Made by a program: the position numbers and the translations under genes
NCBI RefSeq assembly: GCF_006717095.1
Contig: NZ_VFQE01000001.1
Location: 2,170,001-2,234,000, forward strand
Length of the DNA: 64,000 nt
Direction of reading: 5' to 3'
Source of the DNA: Blastococcus colisei
Lineage (GTDB): Bacteria; Actinomycetota; Actinomycetes; Mycobacteriales; Geodermatophilaceae
Shown here: positions 10,986 through 13,065 of the stretch, in pieces
How positions within the stretch are numbered: the first letter of the stretch is position 1
Layout of the letters: each line of letters begins with the position of its first letter
The notes under the pieces: generated by a model
What the model was told of the DNA's origin: nothing
Databases searched by the model: none
Seen by the model: the letters and a program-made list of their open reading frames with translations, nothing else

Positions 10986-11453
10986 GTGAGCGACGCCTCG
11001 TTGGACCGGTCCCGATGCTCGGTGGCCGGCACCCTGGCCGTGGTCGGGGAGAAGTGGAGCCTGCTCGTGCTGCGGGAGGCCTTTCTCGGCGTCCGCCGGT
11101 TCGCCGACTTCCAGCGCAACCTCGGCGCCCCCAAGGCCGTGCTGACCGACCGGCTGGCCACCCTGGTGGAGCAGGGCGTGCTGCGGCGGGTGCCCTACCA
11201 GGCCGACGGCGAGCGGCAGCGCCACGAGTACCGGCTGACGGCCAGGGGGATCGACCTCTATCCGACCCTGGTGGCCCTCATGCAATGGGGCGACAAGTAC
11301 CTGGCCGACGACGGCGTCGCGCCGCTGCAGCTGGAGCACCGGGACTGCGGGGCGCCGGTGCACCTCGGCATCGTCTGCGCGGACGGCCACGAGCTGTCCG
11401 GTGCTCGTGAGGTCCGGGCGATCGCGCGGTCGACCGCCGTCAGCTCAGGGTGA
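10986..11453 (+). CDS. HxlR family transcriptional regulator
   Basis: A 155-residue winged-helix protein of the HxlR type. It has the diagnostic N-terminal Cys (SRCSVAGTLAVVGEKWSLLVLRE core), an FADFQRNLGAPKAVLTDRL recognition region's core, and a C-terminal half with Cys residues (HRDCGAPV, GIVCADG) that could sense redox or electrophiles. The GTG start is leaderless. Its stop codon TGA coincides with the first three bases of the MITE-like element that follows. Confidence 0.88.
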   Translation: MSDASLDRSRCSVAGTLAVVGEKWSLLVLREAFLGVRRFADFQRNLGAPKAVLTDRLATLVEQGVLRRVPYQADGERQRHEYRLTARGIDLYPTLVALMQWGDKYLADDGVAPLQLEHRDCGAPVHLGIVCADGHELSGAREVRAIARSTAVSSG

Positions 11454-11769
11454 GTTCGGCAGCAGGGTGACCTCGGGGTGGGAAATGCCCCTCGAGTCCC
11501 GCGGATCCCGGTCGCGTTGGAGTCTCGCGGTGTTCTCCACGCTCGTGCGGTCCCGCGCCCCTTCGGGGGTGCTCGTGAAGAGCAGGTCGAGCCGCTCCAG
11601 CGGACGTTGAGCCATGTCAGGGTGCGGCTCAACGTCCGCTGGAGCGGCTCAACATGCATGCCAACAGGGCGCTGCGGGACTCGGCACGGTGATCTCGGCC
11701 CCGGAAGCGGCGGCATGTCATGACGGGCGGGGACCCTCCCACCCGGAAGTCACCTTGCTGCCGTACTCA
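11451..11769. mobile_element. MITE-like element, 319 bp, with terminal inverted repeats and 8-bp target duplication
   Basis: The first 32 bp (11451-11482) and the last 32 bp (11738-11769) are inverted copies of each other, 28 of 32 matching. The tips are TGAG...CTCA. GCTCAGGG directly flanks the element on both sides (11443-11450 and 11770-11777), as an 8-bp target-site duplication would. The interior encodes no transposase, contains a 25-bp perfect hairpin and shows no plausible gene on either strand. It is inserted exactly where the convergent HxlR and murD2 genes end: its first three bases supply the HxlR stop and its last three supply the murD2 stop. The parent transposase is not in the window. 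Confidence 0.72.
11589..11650. repeat. 25-bp perfect inverted repeat inside the element
   Basis: The arms at 11589-11613 and 11626-11650 are exact reverse complements separated by a 12-nt loop. The arms begin GAGCCGCTCCAGCGGACG. In RNA this would be a very strong hairpin able to terminate transcription from both flanking convergent genes. Confidence 0.85.
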
Positions 11770-13065
11770 GCTCAGGGTGAGGGACTCCACCGTGCGCACG
11801 AAGTCGGCGGCCCGCTCCTCGTAGTTGCGGTACCGGCCGAAGCTCGGCGCGGCGGGGGATAGCAGCACCACGCCGTCCGGACGCGCCCACTCGAAGCCGG
11901 CCCGCACTCCTTCCGGCAGGTCCGCCACCTCGCGGACCTCGACGTCCGGTGCGCCGGTGCGCAGCGCCGCGGCGATCCGCGGTCCGCTGTCGGGCAGGCA
12001 GATCGCCAGCAGGCCGGCCCGGCCGGTGAGGCCGTCCGCCAGCGGCGCGTAGTCGATGCCGCGGTCGTGGCCCCCGACGAGCAGGGCGACCCGCCGCCCG
12101 CGGAAGGCGTCCACGGCGGCGAGGGTGGGCAGGACGTTGGTCGAGAGGCTGTCGTCCACGAACTCCACGCCGTCCACCCGGCCGACCGGGCGCAGCCGGC
12201 TGCCGAGACCCGCGAAGTCGCGCGCCGCGGCCGCGATCCGCGCGTCGTCGTCGGCGCCCGGCACGCCGAGCGCGACCAGGCCGGCGCGGGCGACCAGTGC
12301 GTTGCGCACGTTGTGCTCGCCGAGCAGGCCCAGGCCCGTGGTCCAGCCCGGGTCGTCGCCGGCGGAGATCCACTGCACGGTCGGGCCCAGCAGGTCGGCG
12401 TGCTCGCGGAGCAGCGGGCTGTCGCCGTCGGCGACCACCTGCCGCACCCCGGGGCGCCGGCACAGCGAGAGCTTGTCGCCGAAGTAGTTCTGGATGCCTC
12501 CGTGCCAGTCCAGGTGGTCCTGGCTCAGCGAGGTCACCGCGACGACGGCGGGGCCGAGCGCCACGTCGGTGGCCTGGTAGCTGGACGTCTCCACCACCCA
12601 CCAGTCGACGTCCTGCGGCGCCTCGGGATCCCACGGCGCGGTGCCGAAGTTGCCGCCCAGCAGCACCCGCTGGCCCAGCCCCGTGGCGAGGTGGCCGGCG
12701 ATGGCGGTGGTGGTGCTCTTCCCCTTGGTCCCGGTGATGCAGAGGACCCGGTCGCGGTCGGCCTCGGCCAGCCACAGCCCCAGCCCGCCGACCACGGGCG
12801 TCCCGCCCTCCTCCAGCGCCTGGAGGTCCTCCCGCAGCCGGGAGATGCCCGGCGACTTCACGACGACGTCGCAGCCGGCGAGAGCCTCGAGCCCGCCGGC
12901 CTCGGTACCGACGACGTCGTCCCCGGCGGGTGCGTCGTCGACCATGACCTGGGGAGCGACGCCGAGCGCGGCCAGCTTGCGCAGGTTCGCGCGGCCCTCG
13001 ACCCCGAGCCCCCAGACGCCGACCCTGCGGTCGCGCAGGTCAGACCAGGAGATCGTCGGCGGCAT
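11767..13065 (-). CDS. murD2: UDP-N-acetylmuramoyl-L-alanine--L-glutamate ligase (MurD2)
   Basis: A 432-residue Mur ligase. The N-terminal Rossmann segment has VGVWGLGVEGRANLRKL, the ATP loop is TGTKGKST (residues 111-118), and the central and C-terminal ligase domains carry WWVVETSSYQ, SLSQDHLDWHGG, LLGEHNVRNALVA and LSPAAPSFGRYRNYEERA. It resembles MurD, but its partner is MurL, encoded immediately upstream with a 26-bp overlap. In Xanthomonas, MurD2 attaches L-glutamate to UDP-MurNAc-L-Ala and MurL then epimerises that residue to D-glutamate. The L-Glu specificity here is inferred from this pairing. Confidence 0.85.
   Translation of the reverse strand: MPPTISWSDLRDRRVGVWGLGVEGRANLRKLAALGVAPQVMVDDAPAGDDVVGTEAGGLEALAGCDVVVKSPGISRLREDLQALEEGGTPVVGGLGLWLAEADRDRVLCITGTKGKSTTTAIAGHLATGLGQRVLLGGNFGTAPWDPEAPQDVDWWVVETSSYQATDVALGPAVVAVTSLSQDHLDWHGGIQNYFGDKLSLCRRPGVRQVVADGDSPLLREHADLLGPTVQWISAGDDPGWTTGLGLLGEHNVRNALVARAGLVALGVPGADDDARIAAAARDFAGLGSRLRPVGRVDGVEFVDDSLSTNVLPTLAAVDAFRGRRVALLVGGHDRGIDYAPLADGLTGRAGLLAICLPDSGPRIAAALRTGAPDVEVREVADLPEGVRAGFEWARPDGVVLLSPAAPSFGRYRNYEERAADFVRTVESLTLS

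Follow-up and report, generated by a model that had tools for sequence, protein, structure and literature searches.

A transposase-free element between convergent stop codons of Blastococcus colisei and a candidate two-gene transposon with related ends

Between two convergent genes of Blastococcus colisei lies a 319-bp MITE-like element which probably belongs to a transposon family of the Mutator/IS256 superfamily that targets a defined motif, and which a two-gene element of the same family likely moves in trans. The window is the whole 64-kb stretch of DNA analyzed here. A scan of the window for exact 8-bp direct repeats flanking inverted ends (≥22/32 matching, spacing 100–700 bp) returns one place only, namely, the element at 11451–11769. 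The element itself is a MITE not seen before, of a kind that is already known. What is new lies in its family, parts of which are predicted: a motif target, a site that is recreated, transposase-free cargo and an exonuclease partner.

The window element and its insertion site

The terminal inverted repeats (TIRs) of the element match at 28 of 32 positions and the flanking target duplication GCTCAGGG is perfect (8/8). Since the tips recur in the flanks, the direct match around the element runs to 15 bp. These values reproduce a sequence-only reading of the window, which had proposed a non-autonomous mobile element placed precisely between two stop codons. The features of the locus are as follows.

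10986–11453, forward strand: HxlR-type regulator gene (PF01638)
11440–11442, reverse strand: TCA to the left of N8, the pre-insertion murD2 stop as inferred from the empty sites L145, L146 and L147
11443–11450: left copy of the 8-bp target duplication GCTCAGGG
11451–11769: non-autonomous, MITE-like element of 319 bp, which exceeds its closest sister copy by about 77 bp
11451–11482, forward strand: left TIR, 28/32 against the right end; its TGA is the present HxlR stop
11582–11657: internal palindrome, arms 11582–11613 and 11626–11657, 94% complementary
11738–11769, reverse strand: right TIR; its TCA is the present murD2 stop
11770–11777: right copy of the 8-bp target duplication GCTCAGGG
11778–11780, forward strand: TGA to the right of N8, the pre-insertion HxlR stop as inferred from the same three empty sites
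11767–13065, reverse strand: Mur-ligase-like gene, named murD2 in the sequence-only reading (PF08245, PF02875)

The HxlR and murD2 genes converge on the element. Both C-termini, ..STAVSSG* and ..VESLTLS*, are intact because the element tips provide both stops, the TGA at 11451–11453 for HxlR and the TCA at 11767–11769 for murD2, just as had been proposed. When the flanks are joined with a single repeat copy, TCA-GCTCAGGG-TGA is restored and the genes overlap convergently by 14 bp, an overlap previously put at about that length. The same arrangement occurs naturally in three congeners (L145, L146 and L147), which carry both genes without the insert and show an overlap of exactly 14 bp between the two stops (TCA-CCTCTGGC-TGA, TCA-CCGCGAGC-TGA and TCA-GCTCCCGC-TGA, respectively), thus providing the empty site that had been anticipated in a relative. 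In a fourth congener (L150), about 0.4 kb of other sequence (1092–1499) separates HxlR from murD2. The murD2 gene is present in 6 of the 57 searched genomes, the host genome included.

Four copies of the element are found in total in the host genome (5.16 Mb, four contigs), all at different sites. The three sister copies (242, 240 and 228 bp) are 87–91% identical to the window copy across 190–197 bp, and each has a different duplication (8/8, 8/8 and 7/8, respectively). A search of the host genome with the tip gave 78 matches at ≤3 mismatches versus 10 for the control; at ≤1 mismatch seven matches are left, all of which correspond to ends of the four copies. Inside the 319-bp element there are short ORFs only, none of them called a gene. 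Conserved ends, different 8-bp flanks and the lack of a transposase bear out the proposed mobile, non-autonomous nature of the element.

The palindrome stretch (11577–11662) has a predicted folding energy of −63.1 kcal/mol (z −9.8). A strong palindrome between convergent genes might point to an ordinary conserved spacer or a bidirectional terminator. We consider this practically negligible: the spacer reading is already refuted by the empty site in three congeners, three sister copies lie elsewhere, and the terminator role was rejected since no terminator-like T-run follows the palindrome. Judged by eye, the palindrome has decayed in the sister copies. Similar palindromes that lack the TIRs of the element are found in the host genome (L011, L014, L015, L018, L019, L021 and L022) and in relatives (L023, L024, L026 and L027), and the palindrome may be a separate dispersed repeat borne by the MITE. 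Its Rfam matches, eukaryotic miRNA models scoring far below the gathering thresholds, were dismissed.

Target motif, stop codons and arrays

The target was analyzed at 18 loci with two recognizable ends. Twelve of them have 8/8 duplications and five have 7/8 (L050, L047, L118, L131 and the L141 array at its outer ends); L133, which was positioned manually, has 6/8. L151 stands for the L126 array, and L049 was entered with its first element only. Excluded were L114 (mismatched duplication), L140 (left end only), L127, L046 and L152 (nested arrays, or arrays lacking a recognized outer end) and the single ends L110, L120, L123, L124, L129, L130 and L132. Comparison of the 18 pairs of joined flanks by blastn reveals a single common piece, of 88 bp, in L048 and L049. 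In the reconstructed pre-insertion sites, N8 is preceded by TCA at 15 of the 18 loci and followed by TGA at 13, with both triplets at 11; base by base, the expected letter of either triplet is found at 15 or 16 loci. The target selection hinted at by the window locus is thus seen over these 18 loci. Deviating flanks, CGA in L116, GGA in L117 and TCT in L047, show that the tips are part of the element itself and that 8 bp are duplicated.

A coding-like frame ends at the insertion site in 10/18 loci; the window locus is the only one at which this holds for both directions. Compared with 28 control TCA-N8-TGA sites drawn from the retrieved loci only, stop codons are not significantly more frequent than the motif by itself would give (10/18 versus 9/28, one-sided p=0.10). 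If the L126 array is taken to end one unit earlier, the count is 9/18, with p=0.18 against 9/28 and two-sided p=0.16 against 3/13 controls. Could insertion be random or loosely directed, with selection alone leaving the copies at stop codons? Harmful insertions are certainly filtered by selection, and the stop-codon comparison, being non-significant, is compatible with this explanation. However, 7 of the 8 loci in which no coding-like stop was detected at the site keep TCA or TGA beside N8, three of them both, which stop-preserving selection leaves unexplained. Selection as the sole cause is therefore quite improbable. The data are most simply read as a preference for the motif; stop codons often coincide with it, and selection would remove harmful cases.

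At six loci, elements lie next to each other with the same N8 between and around them.

L151: CCCGGCGA, five copies, the last adjoining a reverse-strand stop
L152: GCTCGTGG, three copies
L153: GCCGGTGC, three copies
L155: GCGCGTGG, two copies
L154: GGTTCTTC, two copies, and one copy of GGTTCTGC
L049, at a host-genome copy of the element: TCGTCCGC, three copies, the last without TCA on its left

Such arrays need no special mechanism, because insertion converts TCA-N8-TGA into two such sites, where a second element would then land. Alternatively, arrays could stem from integration of circles, unequal recombination or tandem duplication. PMC3942029, in the part considered here, reports that related transposons form circular intermediates whose ends are separated by 6–10 bp of flank, and two near-equal 74-bp units in L151 have the look of a tandem duplication. 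Yet array neighbors are different elements, which differ in cargo and TIR subtype, as duplication of a single element would not yield. We consider these routes rather unlikely compared with repeated targeting of the recreated site.

Several TIR subtypes exist, for example, TGAGTACGGCT in L151 and L152. A second tip subtype, TGAGTACGGCTNATGAGGGTGA (L152 11981–13749 and L151 7373–8636), occurs in the same arrays, and with the same N8, as the TGAGTTCGGCAGCA type. In addition, L151 (8645–8801), L049 (1281–1355) and L048 (around 925–1001) contain a roughly 75-bp unit, TGACTCCGGCCGGG..CCCGGGGCCGTCA or variants of it; in L151 and L049 it adjoins elements with the same N8, and it is perhaps a very small third class of elements.

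Non-autonomous relatives and the candidate parent

The tip GAGTTCGGCAGCANNGTGA is found with ≤1 mismatch in 36 of 112 genomes of the host's family, versus 0/112 for the reversed control pattern; part of these matches are single and chance-like. Paired ends and duplications define two kinds of non-autonomous elements, MITEs and gene-carrying elements.

MITEs of 277–279 bp: L047, L119, L122 and L133
MITEs of 359/360 bp: L118 and L121
MITE of 121 bp: L141, 6687–6807
Mycothiol maleylpyruvate isomerase-like cargo: L117, and L128 by DNA identity
RibD_C reductase cargo: L126/L151
Methyltransferase cargo: L151
SMP-30/gluconolactonase-like cargo: L127
Short-chain dehydrogenase and HTH regulator cargo: L115
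NmrA and TetR cargo, both from the scanned ORFs, and a putative cupin-like ORF: L046
Mycothiol-S-transferase and RibD_C cargo: L152
Cargo of two ORFs without a family match: L131

No transposase is found among the scanned ORFs of the cargo elements, which are a subset of all their ORFs. One and the same cargo element occupies L117 in one genome and L128, a different site, in another (88.9% identity over 926 bp); the duplications differ, being CGGCGGCA and GGGGGCGG. A locus with TetR and SnoaL genes between two good TIRs (L114, 204–1747) has unlike 8-bp flanks and is perhaps rearranged. An exact search with the tip across the order gave matches in 23 of 397 genomes, versus 2/397 for the reversed control pattern. 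Six of the additional loci were examined. One of them (L185), in a genome outside the host's family, is a 754-bp element flanked by duplicated GTAACGGG. In L177, L179 and L183, which share their flanking context, the partner end was not found, and in L176 and L186 none lies within 1.5 kb.

Two complete elements of the family, from two related genomes, have two genes each: one encodes a transposase of 665 or 577 aa and its neighbor an exonuclease-like protein. The first (L116) is 4377 bp long, with TIRs matching at 34/34 positions and an 8/8 duplication, GCCCGGGA; the second (L141) is 4583 bp long, with 28/30 and 8/8 (GGTTCTTC), respectively. Both are located after TCA-N8. The first 14 bases of L116 are the same as those of the window element and of its three sister copies, and beyond this tip the TIR of L116 differs from that of the window element. 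L116, which shares this tip, is the candidate parent. The sequence-only reading had regarded the element as not explained by the genes at hand, which holds for the host genome, where the transposase of the two-gene elements was not detected, and is now extended by a candidate from a related genome. The insertion sequence with matching ends that it had looked to is found as far as the tip, and differs from the window element in the rest of the TIR.

Pfam, NCBIfam and PDB gave no match to the L116 transposase, and PHROGs gave one at chance level; the six aligned transposases together gave one chance-level match in Pfam. D357, D436, H462 and E563 are invariant in all six, which we take to be the DDE triad and the histidine of the Mutator group. 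The closest model is IS1249 (NCBIfam NF033544), whose cut-off of 300 bits is not reached: the scores are 37.3 bits for L143 and 14.8 bits for L141, and the model does not match L116, L140, L142 or L134 at all. Profile comparison with IS1249, represented by three proteins taken as members, two of them confirmed, gives a probability of 96.6% over 97 columns, in which D436 and H462 are aligned and the third acidic residue lies outside. By homology, the predicted two-gene transposon probably belongs to the Mutator/IS256 superfamily. For the L134 fragment, a structure predicted from the single sequence reached a mean pLDDT of 37.1 and was not relied upon. The L116 exonuclease matches PF00929, and D67, E69, D156, H208 and D213, invariant in 5/5 exonucleases, presumably form a DEDDh active site.

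The transposase is present in 5 of 108 genomes of the host's family, with the exonuclease adjacent every time, whereas the tip occurs in 36 of 112. A sixth transposase is on a 3.4-kb contig of a Nitriliruptoraceae MAG, where no exonuclease match was found. In an order-wide sample of 249 genomes the transposase is present in two, both of the host's family, and the phage, plasmid and viral-contig collections contain no relative. Both ends were recognized for two of the five two-gene loci and the left end only for L140; ends were looked for in L142 and L143 and none found. The left junction of L140 (4227) and a right junction at L156 (11388), on two unjoined contigs of one genome, have the identical N8 GCCCGCGG and may be the two sides of a single insertion or array. 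A class-wide search, with five candidates per genome scored, gave weak transposase matches in 5 of 394 genomes. L161 and L162 are IS1249 members and were set aside; L163 and L166 are alike by eye. L164 (867–2735) and L165 (439–2509) are distant single-gene insertion sequences; their duplication is 8 bp long, their tips differ, TCA-N8-TGA is lacking, and none of their listed ORFs is an exonuclease gene.

The rarity of the two-gene transposase in the host's family, its absence from the host genome and the existence of several TIR subtypes would also suit a history in which another, unseen transposase moves the MITEs and cargo elements, the likeness of tips going back to an ancient common ancestor. 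We deem this unlikely, because the 14-base tip is identical in L116, the window element and the sister copies, and because L116 and L141 both lie after TCA-N8 with 8-bp duplications.

Proposed mechanism and relation to known systems

The element with its copies and duplications, the empty sites, the target motif, the arrays and the two-gene elements with related ends are observed. For catalysis, mobilization in trans, the role of the exonuclease and the formation of arrays we infer the following course. The predicted transposase would recognize ends of the form TGAG..CTCA and favor the palindromic target TCA-N8-TGA, which the TGA stops of convergent or neighboring genes can form. An 8-bp staggered cut would duplicate N8, and an interrupted frame would retain its last codons and its stop, since the TGA and TCA of the tips abut N8. 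Each insertion would create two new TCA-N8-TGAG sites, which later elements could join with the same N8, giving tandem arrays; circular intermediates may perhaps take part, as reported for a related group. The mover would be the two-gene element (a Mutator-like DDE transposase with a DEDDh exonuclease) or a lost relative acting in trans, and the MITEs and gene-carrying elements would have been moved by it. The full picture, which we put forward tentatively and at slightly less than even confidence, is of a self-renewing landing site: transposase and DEDDh exonuclease would insert elements at TCA-N8-TGA with the stops kept, leading to integron-like arrays of trans-moved cassettes.

Bacterial MITEs and mobile insertion cassettes have inverted ends and a duplication and are free of a transposase, some of them with passenger genes. 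The family described here differs from them by a target motif that regenerates the stops and itself, and by the same-N8 arrays. Integron gene cassettes are compact units that carry genes, have no mobility enzyme and are lined up at a single site. By an analogy drawn from the layout of the elements alone, the stacked transposase-free gene units would work alike; unlike integron cassettes, they are bounded by TIRs, have 8-bp duplications and have a DDE element as the likely mover.

According to the part of PMC3942029 considered here, the p-MULT assemblage of prokaryotic Mutator-like transposons (IS256, ISH6, ISLre2/TnGBS, ISKra4, ISAzba1 and ISMich2) has 8- or 9-bp duplications, inverted repeats of 18–39 bp and a conserved terminal cytosine. 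The two-gene family resembles it in a transposase putatively related to Mutator/IS256 DDE enzymes, in inverted repeats of about 30 bp and 8-bp duplications, and p-MULT also has members with defined sites (PMC3942029); L116 (8/8, 34/34) and L141 (8/8, 28/30) fall within the published ranges of duplication and repeat length. However, the tips here are TGA..TCA and lack the p-MULT terminal cytosine (PMC3942029), so we have not filed the family under the five published p-MULT groups. Further differences are the stop-codon-like target motif and the DEDDh exonuclease partner; a word search of the main text of PMC3942029 did not find 'exonuclease'. The similarity to IS1249 is one of profiles around the second aspartate and the histidine (best score 37.3 bits, L143), whereas the family here has a long N-terminal part with Cys/His pairs and the exonuclease partner. 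Animal KolobokD elements combine a DDD/E transposase and a DEDDh exonuclease proposed to degrade intermediates (PMC9587614, in the part considered here); the likeness, drawn from that description only, is in the pairing, KolobokD being eukaryotic. The titles and abstract openings retrieved from the literature contain nothing on a comparable insertion at overlapping stop codons and no bacterial transposon with DDE and DEDDh enzymes.

If the proposed course is true, a mobile element could spread through a dense GC-rich genome at near-zero cost, because its tips supply the replaced stop codons. The recreated target would then be a simple path to gene-cassette arrays, with no integron needed. Likewise, the bacterial pairing of DDE and DEDDh enzymes would parallel that of animal Kolobok, as described in part in PMC9587614, and would make the role of the exonuclease testable in a tractable system.
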